IMG/VR virus record: IMGVR_UViG_3300020179_000124 | Coordinates: 1-29,192 of that record | Direction: 5' to 3' (one strand) | DNA: 29,192 nucleotides | Origin: a virus | Part shown: one piece after another, positions 9,022 through 29,192 of the stretch | How the letters are laid out: every line of letters starts with the position of its first letter | How positions within the stretch are numbered: position 1 is the stretch's first letter | Position numbers and translations under genes: made by a program | The notes under the pieces: generated by a model | The model's input: the letters and a program-made list of their open reading frames with translations, nothing else | Told to the model about the DNA's origin: nothing | Databases searched by the model: none

Positions 9022-12000
9022 ATGCCTCAATACAGTATCCAAGGGCCGGACGGTAAGACCTATAGCATCGAAGGCCCAGTAGGGGCTACTAGAGAAGAGG
9101 TTATTGACGCTATCGAATACCGTATGCGTCAGTCCCCACAACCAGAAGAGGAATCTGGTTTTGGCCGTCAGCTATTAGATATTCCCGTCCAGGCTGGTAA
9201 AGGTGTAGTTACCGGAGTCAAATCTCTTACCAATATCTTCGGTGCAGATAATCTAATATCTGAGGCACTAAGTGGAGTAGAGGGCTACATGGATAGCCTT
9301 CTGTCTGCACAAGCCAAAAATGATCAGAAAGAGATTGCCCGAATCATGGCTGAAGCCGAGGATAAGGGCGTTGCTGAAAGGGTGTTGGCCGGTGCTAAAG
9401 CGTTTGCCACGGCTCCTGTTGACATCATGTCTCAGGCCTTGGGTACAGCCGTCCCTGCGATAGCTGGTGGTCTATACGCCAACCTTTTAAAACTTGGTAA
9501 GGCTGGTGTCATAGGAGTTCAGTCTGGCATCGGTGCCTTGATGGGTACTGGTCTTGTTAAAGGAACCATCTACGAATCTGTAAAGGACGCTCTGATTGGG
9601 GCTGGTGAAAGTTCTGATGTAGCGGAGAAAAAAGCCTCCGAGGCTCAATCATTTGGCGGTGAGAACTGGGGATCAATCCTTGGCGGTACAGCGTTAGGTG
9701 CGCTTGCTGGCTCAACCGGTATTGAGAGGATGATCGTTAACCGGTTTGCGGCCAAGAAAGCCGCAGAGGAAACTGCTAAAGGAATTGGTCGTAGGGCAAT
9801 TGAGGGCGGTGTAACTGAATTTACACCTGAGTTCTTCCAAGCCGCACAGGAACAGGTAGCCGCTAACCTTGCGCTACAGAAGGAAGGGTTTGATGTTGAT
9901 ACCTTCCGTGGAGCCATCGAGCAGGGAACTCTTGAGGGCTTGGCTGGCTTTGGACTTGGTGCTGGTATCGGTGCTGTTACCGGACGTAGAGCTGCGGCTC
10001 CCGGAGTCACACCGCCATCAGAGCCAAAGGTCACATCCACAAACATTTATGAAATTACCGATTTTGACGGCAACCCATCTCAGGTCACGGTCACCCAAGA
10101 CGATGCAGGAAACATATTTGCTAGGGACGATAAGGGCGAGGAGATAGACCTGACCAATGTGGTTAGTACTGGGGTGTCGATTGAGGATGCGGTCAAGAAA
10201 ACATTTTCCCCTGAAGATGCGCCAGCGCCGGTTATAGCCAAGCCACCAGAAATTGCTCCACAGCCGGAGATTGCGTCCGCCCCAGAAATCACTCCACCAG
10301 AAGTGCCTGCGGCTCCTGAAATAACTGTGCCAAAAGCGCCTGCCGCACCAGAGGTTCCTGTTGCACCAACGCCTTCTGTATTAACTCCTGACGCTGAAGC
10401 CTTACTAGATTCGGTTGATGCCGGTGGAATCCCAGGGTTTGTAACCAATAATCTTCGAAGGATTGCCCAAGAAAACGGCATCACAGTTACAGCAAGCACC
10501 ACACCAGACGACATAATTGCAGGGTTACGAGCCAAGAAAACCGCCGCCCCAGAAACTGTTGCTCCAGAGGCTGTTGCTCCCGAAGCGCCTGTTGCCGAGC
10601 CAGTTCAAGAACCCCGTGTGGAGTTACCCACTGTTGAGGACATGGCTCCTCCTGTATCCACACTTGGCGATGTAGAAACCGGCAAGCCATTTACTTTTGA
10701 AGGATTCCGTGGAGAGGGTAAGCCCAAGAAAGACATCTATACCGGCGCCCGTATCGCAGTTGGTGGCGAGGGAAGATACATTGCAGACACAGAGGAAAGC
10801 GCCAAGAACTATGGCGATAAAATTTCTCGGGAAACAGTAACTCTAAATAACCCGCTAGTCATTCGTAACGATGACGAGTGGAGAGCGCTGACCCGTCAGG
10901 CGGGATGGAAGTATCCCAATCCATTTAGCCTTGAGGAGTCTGTTGTCAAAAGGATGACAGAAGCGCTTGCAACCTTGGTTAAGGGACAAGGATATGACGG
11001 TATCGTCATTGACATGGATCCACGGGGGGATATGGCTAAGACCCTGTACAACGTTTTCGGCCATCCACAAATTATTTCTTATAAACCTGCAGCCACAGAA
11101 AAATCAGAAATTGATGCAGGGTTTAGTGAAAATCCAGAGCCTTTGTATACATTACCAGAGTTTCCAACTCGTGATGAGCAAGTGCGTTATTACTTTACTC
11201 AAAACAAAAATGTAAAGAGAACAGACATAGTAATTTTTGATGACATGATTGGTTTTAAACAATCTGATCAAACTTATAACAATATGCCAGATGGTAGTGG
11301 TGGGGAAAATTTAGGAAATATTGATGACATAAGAGAAACAATGAAGAATGTATTTCGAGAGTCATTAGAAACAGTTCTAATGCCAAAGAAATACTTTGAA
11401 ATATATTCAAAACTTTCTAAACCACTTAAGGCTCAGACTCCCACAAAAGAAGTTGAGGTCGCTCCATCATCTGCCGCTAAGAAGACATCTGATTTTATTG
11501 ATGCTGAAGTTGAGGCTTTAGGTCCTCCCCCTGCCGGTGAGAATCCCAAGCAGTCTACAGCCCGTAGGATTAATGAAACCAAAGCAGCTTGGAAGAAATA
11601 CCAGGCATTCGCCAAAGAGTTACCCCCTGAGCAACGGTTTAACGAAGGCCAGTTCAAGATGGTCTTTGACCGTAGACGCCGTTCATATGAAGAAAAATCA
11701 GGAACAAGGCCTGCTCCTACAGCCGCCCCAGTCACTGAGCTTCCCATGGCTTCTAGCGAGGCAGAGTTGGGAGGACGAATTAACGCTACCCCCAAAGAGC
11801 GCAGGGTGGCTGAAGAATTAGCTGAAGAGTTACTTGGTGAGGTGGTCTGGCAGCAAGGTAATACCAGTATGTTGCGTGTCGCTGATCCCAAATACGGGAA
11901 CATGCGTTACATAGCATCTGTGGGCCGCCGTAGAACTAGCACGGATGTTCGTAGTTACACAGGCAAATTAATACCCTTTGAGACAAAAGTTTATCTCAGG

Positions 12001-15000
12001 GACTTAGCTGAACAACTTGAGGCTGACGCTAGGGCTAAACACAACGCCAACCCGTATGTGAAGTTTAGTCAAGGCATATCAGTCTCAGAGGACATTGATC
12101 CCAAGATTGAGGGAGTGCTTAGGGGATGGAGGAAAGAACTTGGCATGAACGCCAAGATTCATATCACCACCCTTGATGCAGTCAAGAGAAACCGAAACAA
12201 ATATACCGGCCCACACCGCTCGATCATTGGCGGGGCATTAAATCCTTACGCTGAGGGATATATGCAGAAGTGGGAGGATGGTAACTATCACATCGTCTTC
12301 ACTAAGTCCACCAGTCTTACAAGGATGTTGGAGACGATTGCCCATGAGTTGGGGCATATCCATCAAAGGGAAGTATTTGAACAGGCAGACCCCGCTACGA
12401 AAAAAGAAATCACAGCGGCATATAATCGCTTCCTAGTTAGAAACAAACCGAAGAACATTCGGGACTATGTACATTCTCTTCGTGCCAAGACAACCGCACA
12501 GATTTCAAGATTCCCAGAAGGCGCTTTAGAAAAGCCCTCTATGGGATTAACTCCATACTGGAGATCATTCAGTGAGTGGTATGCGGATCAGGTTTCCCGC
12601 TGGGCAGTTTCTAGTGAGAAGCCGGTCGGGGTTGTAGAACAGTTCTTTGCTCGTTTAGCCCAAGCCCTGCGTAAGTTCTATAAGACTGTCAAAGGACAGG
12701 GATATCTGCCGGATGAGACATTTGTACAGTATCTAAACAAGGTTAAGTCCCGTGCTCAGATTCTGCCCTCCACTATAGGAGAGGCATCAAAAATTGAAGA
12801 ACAAGGATTAAGTAACATACAACCTAGTGAGGGATATAAGGTTCAAGCCATCCTTCCGGAAGATTTGCCTCAAGCCAAGAAAATGGTGGGCGGTCTGTAT
12901 GTTGGGGATACGGTATCTAACAGATCCTCTATTGATTCTTCGCTTGATTCTTACAAAATCCTTGGCATCCGTGAAGTTCCGTACTCGGTTTTTGAGGATC
13001 AAGGAGCACCAATATATGCAAACCGCTCTCAGGAAAACTACACCAAGGAACTTGCTGACAAGATTAGCGAAAGTCAAAAACTCAATCCGTTAATTGTGGT
13101 TTATGACAAAGACGGATATTACATTCTTGAAGGTTCGCACCGGTTTGATGCTTTAAAAGAACTGGGTATCAAGTCTTTCCCCGCACTGGTGGTGAAAGAT
13201 ACTTCTGAAGATATGGGGGTTCCTGACATTGAGTTCTCAGAGATGCTCAAGAAGCTCCCACCCGGACGTTCTGAGGAACTGCGTCAGGCGGCAGTAGACC
13301 TTGCCGATGGGAAGATAACCTCTGCAGAGTTTGATGAGATGGTCAATAAGTACCGTCCTATCGTAGCTCGTCAGGTTGTGCCTAAGCCCAAAACTGAAGC
13401 CGAAATGAAAGAGGCTCTCAATGTTACTCAGCGGGAAAAAGTCAACCCACAGATTGCAGAGAATACCCCTGTCGGTACACGGCTTGACATCGAGGCTACC
13501 AAGAAAGGTGTGCCGGTTGTCACCATTCACACCAAACGCCCCGGCGGAGTAGAATCTAAATCCGTAGGTAAGGTGATTGGATTTAAGAGCGTTGCCAAAA
13601 TTCGAGATGTCACATTCTCCCCTGGCAATTCGAGCGAATCGCTTGAGATGGCGATGGGCAGGAGGAAACAACCCCTTCAGACTATGGAAGGGCGGTGGGT
13701 CAATGTATCCCCTGATGACGCATATGCCGAAGCCACTAGCATCTTTGCCTCTCCAGAGTGGACAGAGATAGGTATTGATCCAACACGGCATTCTTACTTT
13801 TACGACAAGCGCAATACCCAGCCGGTAACCAACGCTGATGAGGTGATTCAGATTGGTGATGCGGTCTTTGCTAAGAATGTTAAGTACGCCGCCAAGGAAG
13901 AGTTCCTGTACTCCGAAGGTAAGCCTATCGTTGGCAGAAGCGATGCGCTCAGGGATGCAGCCAATCAGCTACAGGAAGGCCTGATTACCGCTCAAGAGTT
14001 TGACAGTCTTGTAAACCAGTACAAGCCTATCCGTGTTCCTCAAGGTGTCAGGACTCCGAATAGCCGTGAAGAGGTGGCTAACATTCTTAAGGCTAACCAA
14101 AAGCCCATGGCTTTCCCTGATATCCCAGAGGGAACCCGTGTAGGCACTAGGTTAGATATTGACTCCACCCGTAAGGGCGTTCCGGTCGTAGCAATCCATC
14201 AGCCGAAACCAAACATTGGTTCTGCCAAGCAACCTATCATCGGCTATGACAGCGTGGCTAGACTGACAGATGTTCAGTTTGCCGTGGGTAATCAGGTACG
14301 GGCTTTAAAGATTGCCTCTGGCGCATTCAAAGAGCCGCTCCAGACCATGGAGGGTTCGTACTCTAAGATCACCCCAGATCAAGCAGTCGCCATCGCTCAG
14401 GCATCCTTGAATGATCCGTCATGGACCCAGGTCGGAGTAGACCCAGAGCGTCATGCTTATTTCTACGATAAAAAGAATACCGACCCTGTAGTATCGGCTG
14501 ACGAGATCATCCAGATTGGGGATCAGGTATTTGCCAAGAACGTTGTCTACGCCCCCAAAGAGGAGTTTCTGTTTAGCCAAAGACTTTCTCCCGAGGCAGC
14601 AGGGAAGATGGCCTTGGATGTGGTTAACACTCTTGGCCGTGGGCTTGAGCCTGAGAAGACAAATGTCCAAAGACTCAAAGAGGCGTTCGTTGACGATAAG
14701 GGTAATGTCAAACTCACTCCTGAGAACGCCAAGAAGGCGGCCACCAAATGGATGGATCAGATTGAGACTTGGGCATTTAGCAGTGATGCGGCCCTAAACA
14801 ACGCTATCCGTAGAACGCTTGAAGACACCACAAAGTCTCAACAGGAAAAGATTGGCGTATTACTTTCTATCAGTTCAAGTCAGGCTGTCCATGCAGACGC
14901 CGTGGCTAGTCTGTTCTTGCGCTATGGTGGGATCCGCTATAACCCTGAGACTTACAAATACGAAGCCGTAGACAATAAGGACAATCTTATAACTTTAGTC

Positions 15001-17322
15001 AAGGCAATTGATGAGCTTGCCACTAAGTACAAGATGTCCAAGGAGCAAGCGGAACGGGTAGCTCACACCGCCTTTGAGGCCAAACGCCTGCGCTCCTTGC
15101 AAGACTTTAATGACGCTTTAAGTACTCAGGTCGAAGAGATTAGGGCCCGTATCGCCCAAGCCCGTACAGAGGGCGACCTCTCCATGAAGAAGCTTCTTGA
15201 GGCTGAACTGCGCCGCAAGATGAAGGACTTCAAGTTCATCCACATGACTGAGGATGAGATCAACGCTGGCCTAAGTTTGATCGACCTCATGCCCAAGGAG
15301 ATGAATAAGATCATCGACACTTGGAATGGTATGCGCCTAAGTGCTGGCGTAGAGCTTATCAAGAGCGGACTGTGGACTGTTGAGGAGGCCGAGATCCTTC
15401 TCTCAAACATAGACTATGTACCGTTTTACCGTGAGGATCAGTTAGAGCAGGGTAAAGGTCCGAAAGAATTCCTCCGTGGTCTTCAGGTCCAGGCTAAGGA
15501 AAAGAAACTCAAGGGCTCCAAGCTCGCCGTCAATGACATCTTTGACAACATAGCTCGATGGACTCAGTACTCTGTCAAGCGGGCGGTAATGAACCGTCTG
15601 GCTGTTGCCAAGATTGATGCCGCCGTAGAAGCGGGGATTGCTCAAAAGGTTAAGGAAGCTCAGAAGGGTAAAAACTCTGTCCGGGTCTGGAGGGATGGCG
15701 TAGCTGAGTTTTACAACCTTAACGACCCGCTGTTCATGGAAGCCTTTGCAGGACTTGAGTCAATCTCCATACCAACATGGAAGCTGGCTTCAAAGTTTTC
15801 TGACTTCTTGCGTCAGTCTGTGGTTTTAAACCCCCTGTTCTCACTTTCTCAGGTTCCTCAAGACGCATTTGCTGCCATTTATACCTCTGGCTTAAAGCCA
15901 CGGTTTGCCTTGAGCATTCCGGCTCGGGCAGTCAAGGAGTTTGTCCTTACCCTGTTTAAGGCCAGCAAGACCAACAAGGACTTAGAACGCATCGGAATAG
16001 TCGGCATCCGTGACTTCACCTCAGCAATCGCCCGTACCGATGCAGAGGTAGCGGCTGGACTGAGGTCAAGGCCGGGGGTTTGGAACAAAGTTAAAGGGTT
16101 CTTGGAGCACATTTCCATGGCCTCGGATAACGCTGTTCGTCAGGCAGTCTATGAGGCATCTATCGCTCAAGGTGTAAGCCGTGCTGAGGCCCTAGAGAAA
16201 GCCTTCCAACTGATCAACTTCCGTAACCGTGGAAGCAGCAAGATGCTTTCCTTGGCTGGACAGGTTATCCCATTCTTTAACGCCTACCTCGCCGCCCAAC
16301 ACGTAGCGATCAAGACAATCTCTGGGGTAGGTATTTCCCCAACAGACCGCAAGGAGGCTTTGAAGACTCTGGCCTACACGACTGCGGCCATGACTACCCT
16401 AGCCTTGATCTACTCGATGATGATGGACGATGACGAGGAATATAAAGACACCCCGTCAATTATCCGTGACCGCCTCTTGATGATTCCGGGCACGAAGATG
16501 TCCATCCCAATCCGGCCAGATATCTTCGCCATCCCCAAGATCATCACTGAACATACCTACATGATGATGACCAATCAGGGGTCAGCCGATGGCCGTAAGT
16601 TCAGGGACTCCCTCAAGGCCGCCTTGGGTAACTCCCTGTTCAGTCCGACCGTGGTTCCCCAGGCCATCAAGCCAGTCGTGGAAGTCGGCATTAACTACAA
16701 TTTCTTCCAAGGCCGGCCACTGGTGGGGACATACCAGAAGGGTTTGGAGACCGAACGACAGTTCAATGACTCCACCTCCGAGCTAGCCAAAATCTTGGGG
16801 AATACGGGTGCTATATCACCGATAGCCGCCGATCACCTGATTCGGGGTATGCTTGGCTCTGTAGGGGGCCTGACGCTCTTCCTGACCAACGGCCTACTCC
16901 ACAGCGATCCATCCGTGCCAAGGCCAGAAATGACAGTCAGAGAGGCATTAGCGGCCCTGCCTAGCACCAGCGGGTTTGTCCGCAGGGAATATGAGACCGG
17001 CTTAAAGAACGACTTCTATGTCCTGCGGGATGAGGTCTCCAAGGCCGTCAATACCCTAAATGACATGAAGGCCCGTAGCCCACATGAGATTGAGGAGTTC
17101 TTGGCTGACGAGAAGAACATCAACCGCATCGGGCTTCAGAAGGCCACCAATAAGATCACCAAGGATCTGTCAACAATCCGGCGGGAAATCTCTAGGATTA
17201 CCCAGTCCCCAGATATGTCGGCCCGTGAGAAACAACAGGCCATCAAGGAGCTCCGTGAGATCGAGCGGGATATGCTTTCGGGGATTGATATCAAAGAGCT
17301 TAGAAGGATGGCGCAGCTCTAG
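9022..17322 (+). CDS. Giant polyvalent protein (ART-like, metallopeptidase, ParB-like, LPD38-like)
   Basis: One uninterrupted 2766-codon ORF. Residues 1-37 form a small domain (SIQGPDGKTYSIEGP). Residues 100-330 are Gly/Ala-rich with membrane-like stretches. Residues 400-455 and 510-530 are Pro/Ala linkers. Residues 555-690 resemble an ADP-ribosyltransferase of polyvalent proteins (FRGEG with Arg563; YIADTEESAKNYG; GYDGIVIDM near 657). Residues 990-1250 hold a zinc metallopeptidase (HELGH at 1108-1112, probable third ligand Glu1185 in SEWYADQ). Residues 1280-1400 are ParB/sulfiredoxin-like (GSHR at 1371-1374). Residues 1414-1853 are two homologous units. The C-terminal third matches LPD38-type sequence (QVIPFFNAYL near 2413), with a hydrophobic segment at 2445-2470. 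Known polyvalent proteins are injected with phage or plasmid DNA to protect it or modify the host; that role is inferred here from architecture and position. Confidence 0.85.
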   Translation: MPQYSIQGPDGKTYSIEGPVGATREEVIDAIEYRMRQSPQPEEESGFGRQLLDIPVQAGKGVVTGVKSLTNIFGADNLISEALSGVEGYMDSLLSAQAKNDQKEIARIMAEAEDKGVAERVLAGAKAFATAPVDIMSQALGTAVPAIAGGLYANLLKLGKAGVIGVQSGIGALMGTGLVKGTIYESVKDALIGAGESSDVAEKKASEAQSFGGENWGSILGGTALGALAGSTGIERMIVNRFAAKKAAEETAKGIGRRAIEGGVTEFTPEFFQAAQEQVAANLALQKEGFDVDTFRGAIEQGTLEGLAGFGLGAGIGAVTGRRAAAPGVTPPSEPKVTSTNIYEITDFDGNPSQVTVTQDDAGNIFARDDKGEEIDLTNVVSTGVSIEDAVKKTFSPEDAPAPVIAKPPEIAPQPEIASAPEITPPEVPAAPEITVPKAPAAPEVPVAPTPSVLTPDAEALLDSVDAGGIPGFVTNNLRRIAQENGITVTASTTPDDIIAGLRAKKTAAPETVAPEAVAPEAPVAEPVQEPRVELPTVEDMAPPVSTLGDVETGKPFTFEGFRGEGKPKKDIYTGARIAVGGEGRYIADTEESAKNYGDKISRETVTLNNPLVIRNDDEWRALTRQAGWKYPNPFSLEESVVKRMTEALATLVKGQGYDGIVIDMDPRGDMAKTLYNVFGHPQIISYKPAATEKSEIDAGFSENPEPLYTLPEFPTRDEQVRYYFTQNKNVKRTDIVIFDDMIGFKQSDQTYNNMPDGSGGENLGNIDDIRETMKNVFRESLETVLMPKKYFEIYSKLSKPLKAQTPTKEVEVAPSSAAKKTSDFIDAEVEALGPPPAGENPKQSTARRINETKAAWKKYQAFAKELPPEQRFNEGQFKMVFDRRRRSYEEKSGTRPAPTAAPVTELPMASSEAELGGRINATPKERRVAEELAEELLGEVVWQQGNTSMLRVADPKYGNMRYIASVGRRRTSTDVRSYTGKLIPFETKVYLRDLAEQLEADARAKHNANPYVKFSQGISVSEDIDPKIEGVLRGWRKELGMNAKIHITTLDAVKRNRNKYTGPHRSIIGGALNPYAEGYMQKWEDGNYHIVFTKSTSLTRMLETIAHELGHIHQREVFEQADPATKKEITAAYNRFLVRNKPKNIRDYVHSLRAKTTAQISRFPEGALEKPSMGLTPYWRSFSEWYADQVSRWAVSSEKPVGVVEQFFARLAQALRKFYKTVKGQGYLPDETFVQYLNKVKSRAQILPSTIGEASKIEEQGLSNIQPSEGYKVQAILPEDLPQAKKMVGGLYVGDTVSNRSSIDSSLDSYKILGIREVPYSVFEDQGAPIYANRSQENYTKELADKISESQKLNPLIVVYDKDGYYILEGSHRFDALKELGIKSFPALVVKDTSEDMGVPDIEFSEMLKKLPPGRSEELRQAAVDLADGKITSAEFDEMVNKYRPIVARQVVPKPKTEAEMKEALNVTQREKVNPQIAENTPVGTRLDIEATKKGVPVVTIHTKRPGGVESKSVGKVIGFKSVAKIRDVTFSPGNSSESLEMAMGRRKQPLQTMEGRWVNVSPDDAYAEATSIFASPEWTEIGIDPTRHSYFYDKRNTQPVTNADEVIQIGDAVFAKNVKYAAKEEFLYSEGKPIVGRSDALRDAANQLQEGLITAQEFDSLVNQYKPIRVPQGVRTPNSREEVANILKANQKPMAFPDIPEGTRVGTRLDIDSTRKGVPVVAIHQPKPNIGSAKQPIIGYDSVARLTDVQFAVGNQVRALKIASGAFKEPLQTMEGSYSKITPDQAVAIAQASLNDPSWTQVGVDPERHAYFYDKKNTDPVVSADEIIQIGDQVFAKNVVYAPKEEFLFSQRLSPEAAGKMALDVVNTLGRGLEPEKTNVQRLKEAFVDDKGNVKLTPENAKKAATKWMDQIETWAFSSDAALNNAIRRTLEDTTKSQQEKIGVLLSISSSQAVHADAVASLFLRYGGIRYNPETYKYEAVDNKDNLITLVKAIDELATKYKMSKEQAERVAHTAFEAKRLRSLQDFNDALSTQVEEIRARIAQARTEGDLSMKKLLEAELRRKMKDFKFIHMTEDEINAGLSLIDLMPKEMNKIIDTWNGMRLSAGVELIKSGLWTVEEAEILLSNIDYVPFYREDQLEQGKGPKEFLRGLQVQAKEKKLKGSKLAVNDIFDNIARWTQYSVKRAVMNRLAVAKIDAAVEAGIAQKVKEAQKGKNSVRVWRDGVAEFYNLNDPLFMEAFAGLESISIPTWKLASKFSDFLRQSVVLNPLFSLSQVPQDAFAAIYTSGLKPRFALSIPARAVKEFVLTLFKASKTNKDLERIGIVGIRDFTSAIARTDAEVAAGLRSRPGVWNKVKGFLEHISMASDNAVRQAVYEASIAQGVSRAEALEKAFQLINFRNRGSSKMLSLAGQVIPFFNAYLAAQHVAIKTISGVGISPTDRKEALKTLAYTTAAMTTLALIYSMMMDDDEEYKDTPSIIRDRLLMIPGTKMSIPIRPDIFAIPKIITEHTYMMMTNQGSADGRKFRDSLKAALGNSLFSPTVVPQAIKPVVEVGINYNFFQGRPLVGTYQKGLETERQFNDSTSELAKILGNTGAISPIAADHLIRGMLGSVGGLTLFLTNGLLHSDPSVPRPEMTVREALAALPSTSGFVRREYETGLKNDFYVLRDEVSKAVNTLNDMKARSPHEIEEFLADEKNINRIGLQKATNKITKDLSTIRREISRITQSPDMSAREKQQAIKELREIERDMLSGIDIKELRRMAQL
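13261..14580 (+). repeat. Diverged tandem duplication inside the giant protein gene
   Basis: Two adjacent homologous units of about 220 codons (roughly 13261-13920 and 13930-14580). Both run in the same order through RS-x-LR-x-A, GTRLDI, KGVPVV-x-IH, PLQTMEG, a DP-x-RH-x-YFYDK block, IQIGD and AKNV-x-YA. They end in KEEFLYS and KEEFLFS respectively. The units are clearly similar at protein level but diverged at DNA level, so the duplication is old. The unit has no enzyme motif that I recognise; it resembles a large polyvalent-protein-associated domain. Confidence 0.85.
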
Positions 17323-22998: not shown

Positions 22999-24136
22999 GA
23001 TATTAGAAAAAATAAGCGAGGCTTTTTTAAAGATTCTTGCGCTTTTTAAACAGCCAACTTTAGAAAAACTTGATTTAGTTGAGATTGATAATGTTGACAC
23101 AACAATTCAAAATGATGAGCGCAAACGTTTTACAAAAAACTTAGGTGAATTATTAGATCACCTAGATATAGCGTTTGACGCTTATAACATATCGACAACA
23201 GTTTTATCTGGGTATTTGTCTCGTGATGAAATTGTTGGGCTGAAAAAACTTGGCGCTCATGTTCCAAACCCGTGGTTGATGAAATATTCTGATTCAAATC
23301 AAAAGATTTCTAACATAACAGACAAATTTCCATCAATGATGTTTATTGGCTTATCTCTAAGCTCACATGATAACGAGGAATTTGTTCACCCAGACTTTAT
23401 GTTTGCAATAAAAAGCAAGAAGTTTCCTTGGTATGTAGAAAAAAAAGAAGGGACTTTGTATAAGTTTGGTATGGGTTATAGATTTGATAAAAAAGAATTA
23501 CACAAGAAATTGATTTGGCAAGCATCGTGGCTTGTAATTCGAAATGATGGAACAATTGAATTTTGCAAAGAAAGCAAACAAAGAACAGTTCAGGTCGGTG
23601 GTAAAAATTCAGGTGGTTGCTACACTCAACGTCTTCGAGGTCATTCTGATCTTTACGAAGCAGTCCTAGATGCCAATCCTGACAAAGGAAATAAAGTTCT
23701 TATAAACTTTTTTATTTCCATGCACGACTGGTGGGTTGGTCGTAAAGATCGTTGGAGCGTGTGTGTTAAAAAAAATGGGGAAAGGGTAACTTTTGCAGTC
23801 GATAAGTTTCTAACCAAAAAATACTTTGCTGACAGGAAAAAAACTGTTAATCAAAACGGAAATCCCAAACGTATATTTCATTATGTAAAACAATTTGAAC
23901 GGGTTCGTGATGGTAAAACTCAGATTGTTAAAGAACATCTTCGTGGCTTAAATGAGTTTGATTGGAAAGGCTATCACTGTTTAATATTAGCTCCTGAATT
24001 TCATGGCCTAACTTCAGTAGAGTTTGATATAGGATCTGAAGAAGACTATGACTCTAAAGAGAAATACATTCTTGCGAGCAAAGTTGGACTAATCTTAGCC
24101 AGAGACGAAGATGAACGAGCTAGGAAGAGACAATGA
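22991..24136 (+). CDS. Unrecognised AT-rich gene (381 aa)
   Basis: 381 residues from ATG 22991 with the strong site AGGAGGG (22978-22984). The DNA is conspicuously richer in A and T than the flanking genes, with many AAA/AAT/TTT codons. The protein is basic and Phe/Trp/Lys-rich, with segments WQASWLVIRNDGTIEF, INFFISMHDWWVGRKDRW and HYVKQFERVRDGKTQIVKEH. The middle could be beta-rich. I see no nuclease, kinase or helicase motif and do not recognise the family. Its composition suggests recent acquisition (moron-like), although it sits in line with the operon. Confidence 0.6.
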   Translation: MSEILEKISEAFLKILALFKQPTLEKLDLVEIDNVDTTIQNDERKRFTKNLGELLDHLDIAFDAYNISTTVLSGYLSRDEIVGLKKLGAHVPNPWLMKYSDSNQKISNITDKFPSMMFIGLSLSSHDNEEFVHPDFMFAIKSKKFPWYVEKKEGTLYKFGMGYRFDKKELHKKLIWQASWLVIRNDGTIEFCKESKQRTVQVGGKNSGGCYTQRLRGHSDLYEAVLDANPDKGNKVLINFFISMHDWWVGRKDRWSVCVKKNGERVTFAVDKFLTKKYFADRKKTVNQNGNPKRIFHYVKQFERVRDGKTQIVKEHLRGLNEFDWKGYHCLILAPEFHGLTSVEFDIGSEEDYDSKEKYILASKVGLILARDEDERARKRQ

Positions 24137-24300
24137 ATGAGGCCTATAGAACCGCAGCTTGGCTTAAAGCTAATGCTAAACATATGGGTACACCGTGGGA
24201 GATCGAACAGATGCTCCGAGCGGCTGTGATTATGAAACTGTTGGCAGACGAATTAGCGAGGCGTGATGCGGTACTACCTGAGCGTTTGCAGCGGAATTGA
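24133..24300 (+). CDS. Small helical protein (55 aa)
   Basis: 55 residues from ATG 24133, overlapping the previous stop by 4 nt. The sequence has an NEAYRTAAWLKANAK helix, a GTPWEIEQMLRAAVIMKLL helix and a basic end. The gene overlaps the methyltransferase start by 35 nt, so the two are translationally linked. Function unknown. Confidence 0.55.
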   Translation: MNEAYRTAAWLKANAKHMGTPWEIEQMLRAAVIMKLLADELARRDAVLPERLQRN

Positions 24301-25636
24301 GGCGGCCACCTGTGCGTGGCATTCCCTCGGCTGGACCCCTGCCGCATTTTCAGAGATCGAGCCCTTCCCATCAGAGGTACTTAAGTATCACTACCCCCAT
24401 GTCCCTAACCTTGGAGACATGACCAAGTTCGAGGAGTGGAATCTTGGAACAATTGACCTTCTTGTCGGAGGAACCCCTTGCCAATCCTTCTCAGTTGCAG
24501 GACTTAGAAAAGGACTGGATGACCCTCGTGGCAACCTCATGCTTACCTATCTTGCGATTGCTAGGAAACATCGGCCCAGATGGTTGGTTTGGGAGAACGT
24601 CCCCGGCGTCCTATCATCCAACGGAGGAGAGGATTTTGCCACCCTACTTCGAGGGCTGGTTGAACTCGGGTATGGGTGGGCCTACCGAGTCCTTGACGCT
24701 CAATATATCCGAACACACGAGTTTCCACGGGCCGTCCCACAAAGACGAAGGCGTGTCTTCGTTGTCGGATATCTTGGAGACTGGCATCGTGCCGCAGCGG
24801 TTTTATTTGAGCGCAGCAGCTTGTCGGGGAATCCTGAACCGAGCCGAACGAAGAGGAAAGACACTGCCTCCGGTGCTCAAGACAGCGTTAGAACAGGCAA
24901 TAGACTCCAAGCGTTTGGACAATACATAAACGATGAGACTGCCTCAGCCATGAAGTCTCGGGACTTTAAGGATGCTACCGACCTGATTACCGAACCCATG
25001 GTTATCCACGGGACGCAGGATCCCATCACCTCAAATGTCGCCTTTCCCTTGGCTACCAACCAAGGACAGGAGAATGCCGTCATCCAGGGCGTCTATGAAA
25101 TGCACGGCCAAGACTCTCGGGTCAGGGATCTTGGGGATGTCTGTTCCACTGTTACCCAGAAGTACGGGACTGGGGGAGGGAATGTGCCAATCGCTTTATC
25201 AGCCCAGGCCGTGGATGTTTATAACCAAGTCGTAAATGGTGATGTTGCAGCCACATTAACCGAAGCGTGCGGTGGGACCAATACCAGCGGACTAAAAGTT
25301 ATGGAGCCGATCCTCGGTGGGTGGGACTATGAGAACAATGCCCATGGATCAGGAGATGCCACTGGCCCTCTGCTAAAGGGTTCCCCCTCTGGTGGTGGGA
25401 GACCTTTGCCAGCCGTAGCCCTAGCCTCTATGGCCGTTAGGAGGCTTACTCCAATGGAGTGTGAGCGCCTGCAGGGGTTTAAGGATGGGTATACCGCTAT
25501 CCCTTGGAAGGGGAAGGATACGCCAGATGGGTTGAGATATCGGGCCTTGGGTAACTCTATGGCCGTAAATGTCATGGCATGGCTTGGGGAAAGGATTATG
25601 GCAGTCGATGAACTACCGAAACAAGAAGCTTCTTGA
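24266..25636 (+). CDS. DNA cytosine C5-methyltransferase
   Basis: 456 residues with the ordered C5-MTase motifs: motif I CSGIEAATCAW at 8-18 (SAM binding), motif IV GGTPCQSFSVAGLR with catalytic Cys72, motif VI WENVPG at 109-114, and motif VIII VPQRRRRVFVVG at 158-168. A long variable target-recognition region spans about 185-385. Motif IX begins RRLTPMECERLQGF near 391, and motif X is LGNSMAVNVMAWL near 428. It transfers methyl from S-adenosylmethionine to cytosine at a sequence I cannot predict. It is likely counter-restriction, as no cognate endonuclease is visible. ATG 24266 is preferred to GTG 24263. Most of codons 60-222 also carry a second long ORF. Confidence 0.93.
   Translation: MRYYLSVCSGIEAATCAWHSLGWTPAAFSEIEPFPSEVLKYHYPHVPNLGDMTKFEEWNLGTIDLLVGGTPCQSFSVAGLRKGLDDPRGNLMLTYLAIARKHRPRWLVWENVPGVLSSNGGEDFATLLRGLVELGYGWAYRVLDAQYIRTHEFPRAVPQRRRRVFVVGYLGDWHRAAAVLFERSSLSGNPEPSRTKRKDTASGAQDSVRTGNRLQAFGQYINDETASAMKSRDFKDATDLITEPMVIHGTQDPITSNVAFPLATNQGQENAVIQGVYEMHGQDSRVRDLGDVCSTVTQKYGTGGGNVPIALSAQAVDVYNQVVNGDVAATLTEACGGTNTSGLKVMEPILGGWDYENNAHGSGDATGPLLKGSPSGGGRPLPAVALASMAVRRLTPMECERLQGFKDGYTAIPWKGKDTPDGLRYRALGNSMAVNVMAWLGERIMAVDELPKQEAS
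24444..24929 (+). CDS. Nested alternative-frame ORF inside the methyltransferase gene (161 aa)
   Basis: A 161-codon ORF in another plus-strand frame, wholly inside the methyltransferase gene. It starts at TTG 24444, and GAGGAG at 24431-24436 lies 7 nt before it, an ideal initiation site. The product begins MEQLTFLSEEPLANPS and has a C-terminal block SLSDILETGIVPQRFYLSAA followed by CRGILNRAERRGKTLP. I recall this block from phage hypothetical proteins encoded beside or within such methyltransferases. If that recollection holds, the region is dual-coding; otherwise this is a chance ORF. Unlike other shadow ORFs here it has both a proper start signal and a familiar sequence. Confidence 0.5.
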   Translation: MEQLTFLSEEPLANPSQLQDLEKDWMTLVATSCLPILRLLGNIGPDGWFGRTSPASYHPTEERILPPYFEGWLNSGMGGPTESLTLNISEHTSFHGPSHKDEGVSSLSDILETGIVPQRFYLSAAACRGILNRAERRGKTLPPVLKTALEQAIDSKRLDNT

Positions 25637-25898
25637 AGCCGTCAGGGAGTCTCCCTGTCAGTCCTGTGGGGCCAAGAATGGGACGGTGGTAGCCGCTCAT
25701 TCAAATCAGCTACGGGATGGCAAGGGCCGCTCGATTAAGGCCCATGACTACCGGATCGCTGCGCTTTGCTATCAGTGCCATTACGACCTAGACCAAGGCT
25801 CCGGCCTAACCAAGGAGGGAAGGGTCGGGATGTGGGAGGATGCTCATAGGAAAACTATCGGCTGGCTGTTTGAATCTGGAAACTTGGAGGTCAAATGA
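25608..25898 (+). CDS. YbcO/DUF1364-like HNH-type nuclease-domain protein
   Basis: 96 residues with a two-cysteine-pair zinc site: CQSCGA near 17-22 and CYQCH near 67-71. Between them are conserved-looking VAAHSNQ, GKGRSIKAHDYRIA and, after the second pair, a YDLDQG segment. This resembles the small lambdoid YbcO/DUF1364-type proteins, which have an HNH-like fold and nuclease activity in studied members. The start at 25608 lies within the last 29 nt of the methyltransferase gene. A longer reading from 25569 would overlap more and is less likely. It may process recombination intermediates. Confidence 0.65.
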   Translation: MNYRNKKLLEAVRESPCQSCGAKNGTVVAAHSNQLRDGKGRSIKAHDYRIAALCYQCHYDLDQGSGLTKEGRVGMWEDAHRKTIGWLFESGNLEVK

Positions 25899-26164
25899 GT
25901 TGCAAAAAAAGTTTTGAAAAGTGGATGGAAAATAAGTCCAAGCGAAGTTTGCTCAAATATAAAAAGAAGATCACAGACTCAGATAGGCGTCAGTTCTATG
26001 CAATCTGGCAACTGGCATGGGTCTATGGAAGGCGAGAACTTAAGGAATCAAGTGAAAAACTTAATCCCATGCCTGCCGAAGAAATGAAGCAACTGTGGAT
26101 CAAGTGTGGTCTTGGGAAAGACTTTGGCCGGGCCGTAGAAATGTGGCATGGCATAAGGTGGTAG
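25895..26164 (+). CDS. Small basic protein, end of the early operon (89 aa)
   Basis: 89 residues, Lys/Arg/Trp-rich and helical (KKSFEKWMENKSKRSLLKYKKK, then AIWQLAWVYGRREL). It starts by ATGA overlap with the preceding nuclease-like gene and ends one base before a TTGACA promoter element. No family is recognised. It is the last gene of the long early operon; the intrinsic terminator at 26257-26290 probably ends that transcript. Confidence 0.6.
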   Translation: MSCKKSFEKWMENKSKRSLLKYKKKITDSDRRQFYAIWQLAWVYGRRELKESSEKLNPMPAEEMKQLWIKCGLGKDFGRAVEMWHGIRW

Positions 26165-26193
26165 TTGACACTAACAATGGGGGAACATATAGT
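26165..26193 (+). promoter_or_regulatory. Near-consensus sigma70 promoter (P-sRNA)
   Basis: Perfect -35 TTGACA at 26165-26170, exactly 17 nt spacer, and -10 TATAGT at 26188-26193 (5 of 6). It begins directly after the stop codon of the preceding gene, and the predicted start is near 26200. This is the best promoter in the window, and it precedes a non-coding stretch with four consecutive hairpins. Confidence 0.85.
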
Positions 26194-26199
26194 CGGAGC

Positions 26200-26290
26200 C
26201 AGCCACCTCCTTGGCTAGTCCTTTTGGACATCTCCCGGCACTCTCCTCGTGCCCTGCCCCCTAGAACTGGACACTCTAGGGGGTTTTTTT
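26200..26290 (+). ncRNA. Compact four-hairpin small RNA candidate with C/U-rich exposed segments
   Basis: Between a near-consensus promoter and an intrinsic terminator lie four back-to-back hairpins. H1 is AGCCA/TGGCT (26201-26205/26212-26216) with loop CCTCCT. H2 is GTCC/GGAC with a TTTT loop (26218-26229). H3 is GGCAC/GTGCC (26237-26241/26249-26253) with loop TCTCCTC. H4 is the terminator. The H2-H3 linker holds TCTCCC. The span 26204-26212 (CACCTCCTT) equals the anti-Shine-Dalgarno tail of bacterial 16S rRNA. The C/U-rich loops resemble those of LhrC- or RsaE-type sRNAs that pair with ribosome binding sites. Overlapping ORFs here lack start signals. It could instead be an attenuated leader of the Mom-like gene. 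Confidence 0.65.
26257..26290 (+). terminator. Strong intrinsic terminator
   Basis: Perfect 9-bp stem CCCCCTAGA (26257-26265) / TCTAGGGGG (26275-26283) with a 9-nt loop, followed by seven T residues (26284-26290). It probably ends both the early operon transcript and the small RNA, and may limit read-through into the Mom-like gene. Confidence 0.93.
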
Positions 26291-26426
26291 CCTTATAGAC
26301 ATTCAGAAATCACTGTCGTAGCCTACAATCGGGGCGGGGAACTAAGGATTCCGCAATGTGGGATTCGGTTGTTCGTACACAACCCGCCCCACCCACCAAA
26401 TCTGCCTCCCACCTTTAGGAGAACAA
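26291..26426 (+). promoter_or_regulatory. Structured leader of the Mom-like gene
   Basis: This 136-nt non-coding stretch has a perfect 8-bp GC stem, GGGGCGGG (26331-26338) / CCCGCCCC (26383-26390). It encloses a hairpin GGTTGT/ACAACC (26367-26372/26379-26384, partly competing with the outer stem) and a direct repeat of GGATTC (26346-26351, 26361-26366). A TACAAT -10-like element lies at 26324-26329, without a convincing -35. Further down, CTCC (26406-26409) can pair with GGAG (26418-26421) of the ribosome binding site AGGAGA (26417-26422). The layout suggests post-transcriptional control of the downstream gene. Confidence 0.5.
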
Positions 26427-26888
26427 ATGGGATTGACTGTAGTGCCCATTAGTATTCGATCAGCCCAGGAATTCGTTGACTCCCACCATCGACACAATAA
26501 AAGACCTCAAGGGGCCAAGTTTGCAATTGGTGCTGAGGAGGATGGACGGCTGGTCGGAGTTGCCATATGTGGTAATCCGATATCCGCAACCCTTATGGAT
26601 GGGATTACCCTTGAGGTAACCCGTGTCTGTGTCTTAGACGATGCCCCAAAGAATACCTGTTCTTTCCTATATGGCCGGTGCTGGAGGATTTGGCAGCAAA
26701 TGGGCGGGAAAAGGATGGTGACCTACACCCTACAGACTGAGCCTGGATCTAGCCTAAGAGGGGCCGGATGGAAGATTGCGGGGGAGGTCAAGCCCCATGA
26801 CCGGTGGGCAGAGAAGAGGAACCGGGACGGGATCGAGCGGACCCCCCAAGAGATCTATGGTCAGGCCAAGTTCCGGTGGGAAGCCTAG
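26427..26888 (+). CDS. Mom-like DNA modification protein (XF1762 family)
   Basis: 153 residues from ATG 26427, with ribosome binding site AGGAGA at 26417-26422. The sequence has VDSHHRHNKRPQGAKFAIG near 17-35, LEVTRVCVLDD near 62-72, CSFLYGRCWRIW, and TYTLQTEPGSSLRGAGWK near 99-116. These are the hallmarks of the XF1762 family, related to the GNAT-like Mom protein of phage Mu, which modifies adenines in DNA and blocks restriction. The HHRHN motif is well kept. The longer ORF from 26358 would run through the C-rich leader and is rejected. An upstream terminator and structured leader suggest tight control, as is known for Mu mom. Confidence 0.75.
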   Translation: MGLTVVPISIRSAQEFVDSHHRHNKRPQGAKFAIGAEEDGRLVGVAICGNPISATLMDGITLEVTRVCVLDDAPKNTCSFLYGRCWRIWQQMGGKRMVTYTLQTEPGSSLRGAGWKIAGEVKPHDRWAEKRNRDGIERTPQEIYGQAKFRWEA

Positions 26889-26916
26889 GACCCCAGATAG
26901 GCCGATCTCAGGTCCT
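26887..26916 (+). other. Hairpin overlapping the Mom-like gene stop codon
   Basis: AGGACC (26887-26892) pairs with GGTCCT (26911-26916). Inside, across a 2x2 internal loop, AGAT (26895-26898) pairs with ATCT (26905-26908). There is no clean T-run after it, so it is not a standard intrinsic terminator; it may stabilise the mRNA 3' end or terminate weakly. Confidence 0.45.
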
Positions 26917-26928
26917 TGTAAAAATCAT

Positions 26929-26957
26929 TTGCTTTTATCGTGCTAGCCCCGTAAAAT
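26929..26957 (+). promoter_or_regulatory. Sigma70-type promoter before the structured RNA region
   Basis: TTGCTT (26929-26934), 17-nt spacer, and TAAAAT (26952-26957), with AT-rich sequence just upstream (26916-26930). The predicted start is near 26964. The -10 is strong (5 of 6) and the -35 partial (3 of 6). It would transcribe the structured non-coding stretch and possibly the PAPS-reductase-like gene. Confidence 0.5.
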
Positions 26958-26963
26958 TCTATT

Positions 26964-27341
26964 TGTCGGATTGACACCCGGCGTTAGGCGGACACAGCGG
27001 TATTTCAGAACCTCTTAGAGAGGGCTTGTTAGTCATCGTTGGTGCCCGCCCGATGCTGGTGGCCTGTCAAGCCCAAGTCCTCTCCAAGAGGTTTTTCTTT
27101 TGGGGCTTGGCATCCGACCGGCAAGACGCCCGTTAGATGTGGGTTTGAATCGACCGCCCGTCAGAAAAGACACCCAGCAACGACACCCGTGCTTGGGTTC
27201 TGGCCTGTTAGCGAGGGACCAGAGTAGCCAGGAGGTAAGTGGTGGGACAAGACTCCTGTGTGAATGAATCGCTACCTTCGGGTTGCCTAGGGCGCACACC
27301 TATCCTGCGCCTAGGGCGGTGGTGGGACTGTTATCCACCCC
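26964..27341 (+). ncRNA. Structured non-coding RNA candidate (about 380 nt)
   Basis: About 380 nt without a credible gene but dense in complementary segments. Helices include: CCTCT/AGAGG (27011-27015/27019-27023); a long arm 27038-27122 built of GTTGGT/ACCGGC, GATGC/GCATC (27052-27056/27110-27114), CAAGCCC/GGGCTTG (27068-27074/27103-27109) and CCTCT/AGAGG (27079-27083/27087-27091); TTCTGGC/GCCAGGA (27198-27204/27227-27233), competing with CAGGAG/CTCCTG (27229-27234/27253-27258); a TTCG-capped hairpin near 27271-27286; a 12-bp stem with mismatch (27285-27296/27306-27317); and GGTGG/CCACC (27321-27325/27335-27339). It matches no RNA family I can name; not tRNA, tmRNA, RNase P or a group I intron by visible motifs. 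Confidence 0.55.
27079..27101 (+). terminator. Weak intrinsic terminator-like element within the structured RNA
   Basis: A 5-bp hairpin CCTCT-CCA-AGAGG (27079-27091) followed by TTTTTCTTTT (27092-27101). GGGCTTG at 27022-27028 and at 27103-27109 can both pair with CAAGCCC at 27068-27074. The two folds are mutually exclusive, which would allow attenuation. The stem is short, so efficiency is doubtful. Confidence 0.35.
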
Positions 27342-27370
27342 TTGGGGAACTTGAAACATTGTGATATAGT
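27342..27370 (+). promoter_or_regulatory. Extended -10 promoter of the PAPS-reductase-like gene
   Basis: TATAGT at 27365-27370 (same hexamer as the promoter at 26188-26193) is preceded by TGA at 27362-27364, an extended -10. A poor -35 (TTGGGG, 27342-27347) lies 17 nt upstream. Transcription would start near 27377, about 20 nt before GTG 27396 and downstream of the alternative TTG start at 27342. Confidence 0.45.
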
Positions 27371-27395
27371 AGATGAAAATTCAGGAGACCATCTA

Positions 27396-28220
27396 GTGCA
27401 AGATCCATTCAGAATAACAGAGCCAACAGTCGTCTCGTTCTCAGGAGGCAGAACCAGCGGCTACATGCTCTGGCGTATCTTGCAATCCAACGGTGGGCTA
27501 CCGGACGAAGCCAAAGTGGTATTTGCCAATACGGGTAAAGAGGAGGAGGCCACGCTTAAGTTCGTCAAGGACTGCGAAGATAATTGGAAAGTCCCCATCT
27601 TATGGCTCGAATACACCAAGGAAGATCCACGGTTCAAAGAGGTAAGCTTTGAGACAGCAAGCCGGAACGGGGAACCTTTCGAAGCCTTGATTGAGAGAAA
27701 GAAGTTTCTTCCCAACCCCGTGACTCGATTCTGCACGGCTGAACTGAAGATCCGGACCATCCATAGATACTTCAAGTCCATCGGTTGGGAGCATGACGAG
27801 AATACGGATTGGATTGGTATCCGGGCAGATGAGCCTAGACGAGCTGCCAAGATGAGCCGAGACAGGGTTCCTCTGTATGTGGCTGGAGTGACAGCGCAGG
27901 ATGTCGGGGAGTTTTGGAAAGCCCAGACATTTGATTTGGGCCTGCCGAACTTTAACGGCAAGACTTACCACGGGAACTGTGATCTCTGTTTTCTTAAAGG
28001 ATATCCACAGACACTAAGCCTGATCCAAGAAAAGCCAGACCGTGCCATTTGGTGGGTTAGGATGGAATCTAAGATTCAATCTACAGGAGAGTTCTCTGGA
28101 GATGGGGCAAGGTTCAGAAAGGACCGCCCGAGCTATGCTGATATGCTTAAATTTGCCAAGGACCAGGGCGACATGTTCGGGTCAGAGGAAGAATCAATAT
28201 CTTGTTTTTGTGGAGATTGA
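27396..28220 (+). CDS. PAPS-reductase-like PP-loop protein (IbrA-like)
   Basis: 274 residues. A PP-loop SFSGGRTSG at 14-22, FANTGKEEEATLKFV at 43-57, ETASRNGEPFEALI at 86-99, RFCTAELKIR at 111-120 and GIRADEPRR at 141-149 place it in the adenine-nucleotide alpha-hydrolase/PAPS-reductase family. Cysteines at 113, 195, 198, 270 and 272 could hold an Fe-S cluster, as in DndC-type relatives. Canonical assimilatory sulfate reduction is unlikely in a phage; sulfur or nucleotide-activation chemistry linked to DNA or RNA modification is inferred. GTG 27396 was chosen because AGGAGA (27383-27388) is correctly spaced; a TTG at 27342 lacks such a site. It is followed directly by a winged-helix gene, then a ParB-like gene. 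Confidence 0.8.
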   Translation: MQDPFRITEPTVVSFSGGRTSGYMLWRILQSNGGLPDEAKVVFANTGKEEEATLKFVKDCEDNWKVPILWLEYTKEDPRFKEVSFETASRNGEPFEALIERKKFLPNPVTRFCTAELKIRTIHRYFKSIGWEHDENTDWIGIRADEPRRAAKMSRDRVPLYVAGVTAQDVGEFWKAQTFDLGLPNFNGKTYHGNCDLCFLKGYPQTLSLIQEKPDRAIWWVRMESKIQSTGEFSGDGARFRKDRPSYADMLKFAKDQGDMFGSEEESISCFCGD

Positions 28221-28439
28221 ATGAGGCACATAATGAGCCCAGCCGAGAAGAAGGTCTGGGAGTATTTGGTAACGCACAAGACTCCGGTTGCAGCGGGCAC
28301 ACTCGCCAAGCGATTCATAATGAGTCAGTCTAGAATATCAGCGATATTAAAAATCCTATACGAGCAAGGCCTGACCGATATCGTCACCATTGGTCGTCAT
28401 AAATTTCACAAAATCAAAAACATAGGAGGTAGTGCATGA
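28221..28439 (+). CDS. Small winged-helix DNA-binding protein (72 aa)
   Basis: 72 residues from ATG 28221, directly after the preceding TGA. The helix-turn-helix AAGTLAKRFIMSQSRISAIL followed by KILYEQGLTDIVTIGRHKFH fits a winged-helix domain (MarR- or replication-initiator-like), the wing being the last strands. It sits between the PAPS-reductase-like and ParB-like genes and overlaps the latter by 4 nt (ATGA), so it is probably the regulator or DNA-targeting part of this cassette. Confidence 0.7.
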   Translation: MRHIMSPAEKKVWEYLVTHKTPVAAGTLAKRFIMSQSRISAILKILYEQGLTDIVTIGRHKFHKIKNIGGSA

Positions 28440-29192
28440 AGGTAATAAAACTAAAACTAACGGATGTTTTTATTGATCCAAAGGCACAAGTTCGTAAGTC
28501 CATAAACCAGAACGAAGTTCAAAAATACGCCGAGCAAATGAAAGAAGGGGACAAGTTCCCCAACATGGTTGTGTTTTTTGACGGAAAGAGATATCTCTTA
28601 GCTGATGGATCCCATAGATACAGAGCTTATAAATCTAATGGAGTTTTAGAGGCTGACTTTGATGTCCACGAAGGCGGTGTAAGAGATGCTTATTTGTATG
28701 CGGTCGGCGCTAATAACAACCGTGGCCTCTCGATGACAGCCGAGGATAACCGTGAAAACGCAACCCGGATGATCAAGGATGAGGAGTGGGGCAAGTGGAG
28801 CGATGACAAGATAGCCAAGACGATTGGTATACCACGCAGCACAGTCAACTACATTAGACGCAAGCTTGAGAAGGCTGGCGAGGTAGAAAGAAAGAGCAAA
28901 GTCAAGTATTTTGACAAAGATGGTAAAGAATTCGAAATGGACAAGAAGAAGCCCAAGGATTCTAAGAGTGTTGAGGAAAATAAGCCACAAGAAGAGCCCA
29001 AAAAAGATTCAGCAACTGAGATACCTGCCGCACCAGAACAGGATGACATAGTTGCAGAACTGACCAATACAATAGATGAGATGTCCAAAGAGAACGAAGT
29101 TCTCAAGGAGAAGATTGCCATCGGTCAGTGGGATGCCAGCGAGATTGAGAAAATAGATGTTCAGGACATCTTGGTAGAACTCAGAGAGAAAA
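28436..29192 (+). CDS. ParB-like domain protein with HTH and coiled coil (IbrB-like; 3' end outside window)
   Basis: 252 codons are visible with no stop before the window edge. ATG 28436 follows the strong site AGGAGGT (28424-28430). Residues 1-95 form a ParB/sulfiredoxin-like domain with LLADGSHRYRAYKSNG at 54-69. Residues 100-145 hold a helix-turn-helix (WSDDKIAKTIGIPRSTVNYI). The rest is charged and Lys/Glu-rich with a probable coiled coil (TNTIDEMSKENEVLKEK). The domain order resembles ParB-family DNA-binding or nuclease proteins. Pairing with a PAPS-reductase-like gene matches the IbrA/IbrB arrangement of E. coli prophage elements. A plasmid-partition role is less likely, as no ParA is seen here. 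Confidence 0.75.
   Translation, partial: MKVIKLKLTDVFIDPKAQVRKSINQNEVQKYAEQMKEGDKFPNMVVFFDGKRYLLADGSHRYRAYKSNGVLEADFDVHEGGVRDAYLYAVGANNNRGLSMTAEDNRENATRMIKDEEWGKWSDDKIAKTIGIPRSTVNYIRRKLEKAGEVERKSKVKYFDKDGKEFEMDKKKPKDSKSVEENKPQEEPKKDSATEIPAAPEQDDIVAELTNTIDEMSKENEVLKEKIAIGQWDASEIEKIDVQDILVELREK

Follow-up and report, generated by a model that had tools for sequence, protein, structure and literature searches.

A candidate stand-alone small RNA gene with exposed anti-Shine-Dalgarno motifs in a lineage of uncultivated phages

The genome of an uncultivated virus, a record of 29,192 bases referred to here as the window, contains a short stretch between two genes that begins like a promoter and ends like a terminator. 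Is this stretch a gene for a small RNA (sRNA), and, if so, what could such an RNA do? The locus, at positions 26165-26290, lies between an 89-amino acid open reading frame (ORF) that stops at 26164 and a Mom-like gene that starts at 26427 and matches both Pfam Mom and phrog_1384. A sigma-70-type promoter (26165-26193, + strand) follows directly after the TAG of the ORF. Its -35 box, TTGACA (26165-26170), and its -10 box, TATAGT (26188-26193), are separated by 17 nt and match the consensus at 11 of 12 positions, which makes it the best of the four promoter-like sites in 24000-29192. At the other end, fold prediction identifies an intrinsic terminator (26256-26290, +) formed by a G+C-rich hairpin, GCCCCCUAGA(N9)UCUAGGGGGU at 26256-26284, and a U7 tail (T7 in the DNA, 26284-26290). 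The predicted transcript, whose 5′ end is placed according to the promoter, is about 91 nt long (26200-26290, +), and a sequence check found no ATG inside the window copy. An earlier note, made from the letters of the window, had reported this promoter followed by hairpins and a terminator, and every coordinate and sequence that it quoted was exact. Judged by sequence, the locus combines its own promoter, an intrinsic terminator and a short non-coding RNA, as expected of an anti-Shine-Dalgarno (anti-SD) sRNA. Host RNA polymerase probably transcribes it from this strong promoter.

The features of the predicted RNA, all on the + strand, are the hairpin H1, AGCCA(CCUCCU)UGGCU (26201-26216, fold prediction), the hairpin H2, GUCC(UUUU)GGAC (26218-26229, fold prediction and alignment with relatives), a single-stranded linker seed, AUCUCCC (26230-26236), the hairpin H3, GGCAC(UCUCCUC)GUGCC (26237-26253), and the terminator. 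H1 includes the single copy of the 8-mer CACCUCCU, the anti-SD part of the 16S rRNA 3′ tail. The four hairpins described earlier are present in the window, but H3, and with it the four-hairpin layout, is specific to the window lineage. The layout in the relatives is H1, then a larger H2 and a single-stranded ACCUCCUC stretch, of which the window linker is the counterpart, and finally the terminator, without H3.

The window RNA has a predicted folding energy of -40.0 kcal/mol (z -3.9; none of 200 shuffles was as stable), and the z-score was still -3.3 after removal of the terminator. The z-scores of the relatives were weaker than that of the window, ranging from -1.0 to -3.2. All three CUCC motifs of the window RNA are predicted to be unpaired (P≥0.9). 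Dinucleotide shuffling gave this outcome in 0.1% of cases for the whole RNA and in 2% when the terminator was left out. The CUCC of the H1 loop is predicted to be unpaired with P=1.00 in six of six distinct sequences. By contrast, general C/U-richness of the unpaired positions is ordinary, since 51% (whole RNA) and 21% (without terminator) of shuffles equal it, and that part of the earlier note's argument is therefore without weight. The earlier note also equated CACCTCCTT (26204-26212) with the 3′ tail of 16S rRNA and proposed pairing over 8 nt. The identity is kept as the 8-mer, with exactly one copy per member, but its position moves, from 26204-26211 within H1 in the window to a site after H2 in all relatives. 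Furthermore, only CCUCCU forms the loop; C26204, A26205 and U26212 belong to the stem, and an 8-nt pairing of CACCTCCTT would therefore require the stem to open.

The sRNA module was found in six further uncultivated-virus contigs, one identical to the window and five divergent, and the six distinct sRNA sequences form about three groups. The near-identical contig, IMGVR_UViG_3300021376_000200, shows no variation in the sRNA. Contigs L086 and L090 were reached via ParB and PAPS-reductase similarity, and L174, L177, L179 and L185 via motif scans. The module is syntenic in all carriers: it comes after an HNH gene, from which it is separated by other genes, and before the PAPS-reductase and ParB genes wherever the contig extends far enough. 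A covariance model of the sRNA detected exactly one copy per carrying record and no match outside the carrying lineage among the loci compared, which points to a lineage-wide single-copy RNA gene. Relatives reached via Mom (80 loci) or PAPS reductase (80 loci) had the sRNA only in the same lineage. Comparison of the region with phage records by blastn returned short chance matches only, and the parts compared of the genomes of isolated phages with related terminase or portal proteins (DSL-LC04, 023Pt_psg01 and HTVC027P) held no sRNA match. A scan of genome contigs for the sRNA gave two chance matches and no host; the terminase and portal proteins of the L174 phage have their nearest counterparts in phages of Pelagibacter, a gammaproteobacterium and cyanobacteria. 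Pattern matches in L168-L172, L175, L178, L180-L184, L186, L187, L189, L190, L192, L195-L197, L201 and L202 were rejected by eye as chance or coding.

A functional RNA should keep its stems and constrain its loops across related phages, a check that the earlier note had suggested and that came out favourably. The five divergent relatives keep the promoter, H1, the H2 core, the terminator and the CUCC motifs, in agreement with its central idea of a stand-alone small RNA with exposed anti-SD motifs. Promoter hexamers and spacing are common to L090, L086, L174, L177 and L179 (the -10 box being TATAGT or TATATT), and the RNA measured from the -10 box is 97-106 nt long across the six distinct sequences. 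Between the window and L090 the promoter spacer is near random (5/17 identical), whereas H1 with the following GUCC is identical at 25/27 positions and the UUUUGGACA(C/U)CUCC stretch at 13/14. The H1 loop core CUCCUU is invariant across the family, and conserved flanks (GGACA, AGUCC) extend past the CUCC cores. The H2 loop is UUUU in the window and about 18-24 nt long in the relatives, where it contains a CUCC motif (CUUC in L086). In a hand-made structural alignment, one H1 pair, the outer one (A-U/U-A), and three pairs of the terminator stem show compensatory changes, and no pair is broken. An automatic count found four pairs changed on both sides versus 0.6 in shuffles, on a model-fitted alignment in which the window row was misregistered; for this reason the hand-made alignment was relied on. 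The four H2 core pairs never vary and are neutral for or against H2. As H2 and most of H1 are invariant, the covariation rests on few pairs from about three lineages. The CUCC-type seeds are both exposed and conserved, as expected of a trans-acting anti-SD sRNA.

Does the RNA belong to one of its neighbours? The upstream genes are of three unrelated kinds, the 89-amino acid ORF in the window, a different ORF in L090 and an ORF of about 70 amino acids in L086, L174, L177 and L179. The mom gene is downstream in the window and absent in L086, L090 and L174, where the RNA persists; this speaks against a mom-specific leader, and that idea was rejected. The three unrelated upstream kinds and the absence of mom from the divergent relatives examined indicate a stand-alone RNA gene, and the presence of the same gene beside different neighbours in related phages makes a genuine role in regulating protein synthesis probable. 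A more general cis-acting leader or attenuator, in which the hairpins would regulate conditional read-through of the terminator into whatever lies downstream and there would be no trans target, fits the order of the elements, namely promoter, hairpins and terminator upstream of mom, a large RNA (described below) and PAPS reductase on the same strand. We consider it unlikely, as the immediate downstream content differs among the phages, no alternative anti-terminator fold is predicted, the large RNA and PAPS reductase have promoter-like sequences upstream (by reading of the sequence), and the seed motifs shift within the RNA yet are kept. A separate long hairpin, GGGGCGGG...CCCGCCCC, lies upstream of mom in the window (26331-26390, +); it is 91% identical over 74 nt in L090, which has no mom there, and is therefore not simply a mom leader.

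In six of six contigs checked, TTGACA begins directly at the TAG stop of the upstream gene, and this junction behind three unrelated genes is a very sharp mosaic boundary. The abutting stop codons of unrelated genes and the mosaic neighbours on both sides are also what would be seen if the locus were a promoter-terminator recombination cassette similar to the T4-type PeSLs, its conserved sequence serving as a shuffling joint and not as a functional RNA. PeSLs are dense (PMC4503421), but the high density of copies expected of them in regions of shuffling was not found here: there is one sRNA copy per record, and in two long contigs (33-43 kb) the sRNA locus is the only place with a near-consensus promoter and a terminator on the sRNA strand. 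In addition, the promoter spacer drifted to 5/17 while the seeds were kept, the reverse of what a pure joint predicts, and we regard the cassette as the least probable of the readings considered.

The reading that we favour, with a probability of roughly 0.6, is a stand-alone phage gene for an anti-SD, translation-blocking sRNA. The promoter, terminator, fold, exposed seeds and conservation independent of neighbouring genes were computed here; we infer transcription, pairing in trans and, as its result, repression. Host RNA polymerase would produce an RNA of about 91 nt from the locus's own promoter, ended at its own terminator. Two to three short anti-SD seeds, each built around CUCC and one of them being CACCUCCU, would be exposed on the RNA, both in a hairpin loop and in single-stranded stretches. 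These seeds would pair in trans with ribosome-binding sites of phage mRNAs, host mRNAs or both, and so prevent ribosome binding and initiation on selected mRNAs, a mode of action validated for NmsR (PMC5362039) and NfeR1 (PMC10746234).

Which mRNAs could be selected? The seeds were tested against gene start regions, with a null in which the CUCC cores were kept and their context was shuffled. The start regions of the Cas4-like exonuclease, ParB, Mom and PAPS-reductase genes of the window, which had been put forward as partners, pair no better than with any CUCC-bearing loop (p 0.8 overall; exonuclease 0.36; ParB 0.64), and pairing with mom cannot be a conserved role because mom is absent from the relatives examined. 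By reading of the sequence, the window exonuclease probably starts at ATG 17781 and not at GTG 17772. Overall mean pairing beat the null in none of five phages, and L086 and L090 gave no target signal against it. The exonuclease and ParB, which fail in the window, are partly rescued in L174. There, the three best genes exceed the null (p=0.02, uncorrected, with five phages and three statistics tried). These three include ParB and a helicase, and the exonuclease ranks fourth. The ribosome sites of the L174 exonuclease and ParB genes are both CGCTAGGAGA, a perfect 10-nt complement of the H2 loop UCUCCUAGCG. The ParB site of L177 matches the sRNA over 9 nt. No pairing is seen for ParB in L086, where H1 together with its flanks is perfectly complementary over 12 nt to the helicase site, CAAGGAGATTGG. 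A simple script called the gene starts of the contigs other than the window, and there are certainly errors among these calls. Given the null result in the window, the uncorrected excess in L174 and the mixed matches in L177 and L086, pairing of the seeds with mRNA start regions is plausible but not demonstrated, and the exonuclease and ParB mRNAs are candidate targets suggested by one relative, L174. Two 12-nt matches in the window, GAGATGTCCAAA at 1303 and 29078, lie in coding sequence and read as the same four codons (EMSK); they were rejected as coincidence.

That no particular window gene pairs better than expected would also follow if the RNA were a global translation dampener, a mimic of the 16S 3′ tail that titrates SD sequences or initiation complexes broadly, as in host shut-off, with no specific targets. 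The presence of exactly one CACCUCCU per member whatever its position agrees with this possibility, as does the precedent of anti-SD-like, CU-rich toxic small RNAs (RF02278), which are inhibitory to the growth of E. coli (PMC5688073, PMC4603805) and to which the sRNA has a sub-threshold match (E 0.14-0.26). On the other hand, the conserved flanks GGACA and AGUCC and the 10-nt matches in L174 suggest specificity, and the phage's own strong SD sites would also be affected; we hold such a dampener to be somewhat less probable than the attenuator discussed above. Repeated exposed loops are typical of sponges as well, and the C/U loops could trap an RNA-binding protein of the host or a host sRNA rich in G and A. 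There is precedent for phage sRNAs that serve as bait for host sRNAs (AgvB, PMC12197685), and in Caulobacter an anti-SD-type sRNA family is the pairing partner of CrfA, a sponge RNA rich in G and A (PMC12559287). We find a binding or sponge role of this kind quite improbable here.

How does the proposed anti-SD sRNA compare with known systems? The C-rich-loop sRNAs LhrC and RsaE of Firmicutes use repeated exposed C-rich seeds against SD sites; they are chromosomal, with UCCC-type seeds. The phage sRNA resembles them in seed repetition and in its proposed aim at SD sites, and it has no match to them in Rfam. Most likely, the functional class, anti-SD sRNAs, is known and the family is new. No Rfam family reached threshold, and the near misses (anti-hemB, RF02278 and suhB) share architecture only. 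NmsRA and NmsRB of Neisseria meningitidis have fully conserved U/C-rich anti-SD stretches between SL1 and SL2 and in the SL2 loop, which pair with target SD sites (PMC5362039), but they are two chromosomal siblings with validated TCA-cycle targets, with no demonstrated sequence relation to the phage sRNA. Rhizobial alpha-r14 (NfeR1) has its own promoter and three redundant unpaired anti-SD motifs and silences mRNAs at their starts (PMC10746234). It is chromosomal, however, and each of its motifs is an identical CCUCCUCCC, which is absent from all members of the phage family. The betaproteobacterial toxic small RNAs of RF02278 (PMC5688073, PMC4603805) are likewise short, form hairpins, leave CU-rich stretches unpaired and end in a terminator, but they are chromosomal and multicopy, and the phage sRNA scores 14.7-20.4 bits versus a gathering score of 50. 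For suhB/mmgR (RF00519) the scores are 13.2-14.6 bits versus 41. The phage sRNA is a member of neither family. The phage antisense RNAs c4 (P1/P7) and sar (P22) are also phage-encoded, short and structured, and c4 loop-pairs at a ribosome-binding site; they differ in their specific complementarity to the antirepressor mRNA ant (PMC12197685). A search for c4 (RF01695, listed in PMC4603805) found nothing in 25800-28440 at E≤10 or in 26190-26300 at E≤5. The phage sRNAs listed in a recent review stem mostly from prophages or temperate phages of a handful of laboratory hosts (PMC12197685), and few have been described from uncultivated, podovirus-like phages. An sRNA with several anti-SD seeds that persists while the genes around it are exchanged is a candidate for a role in post-transcriptional timing or in the control of host translation during infection, and seven contigs with clear seeds to mutate make it directly testable.

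A second, larger structured noncoding RNA of about 377 nt lies between mom and PAPS reductase (window 26965-27341, +). It was found in L086, L090, L174, L177 and L185 and partially in L179; among the loci compared, it is present in every sRNA-carrying record and in no other. Both sides have changed in 22 of its 105 consensus pairs, versus a mean of 10.1 and a maximum of 19 in 500 shuffles. No Rfam family reached threshold and no match was found in phage records; of the two RNAs, this one may be the greater novelty. One could imagine that the sRNA is a 16S 3′-tail mimic under selection, with exactly one CACCUCCU and a further CUCC seed or two, and that it reprograms translation initiation in the infected cell jointly with this undescribed RNA; we rate this as doubtful, about as much so as the global dampener.

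Other loci with comparable elements were noticed. In an unrelated phage group a strong promoter is followed, at the likely 5′ end of the transcript, by the hairpin TGACC-TCCT-TGGTCA, whose loop is of anti-SD type (L191 2617-2664, L194 177-224, L198 3436-3483, L199 349-396 and L200 1190-1237); this is possibly a parallel case to the sRNA. The window also contains a 2,766-amino acid open reading frame at 9022-17322, which lies among the structural genes of the phage. Another sRNA candidate is found in the unrelated contig L188 (1787-1940), where a promoter, CTCCTTGG and a strong terminator lie within about 150 nt.
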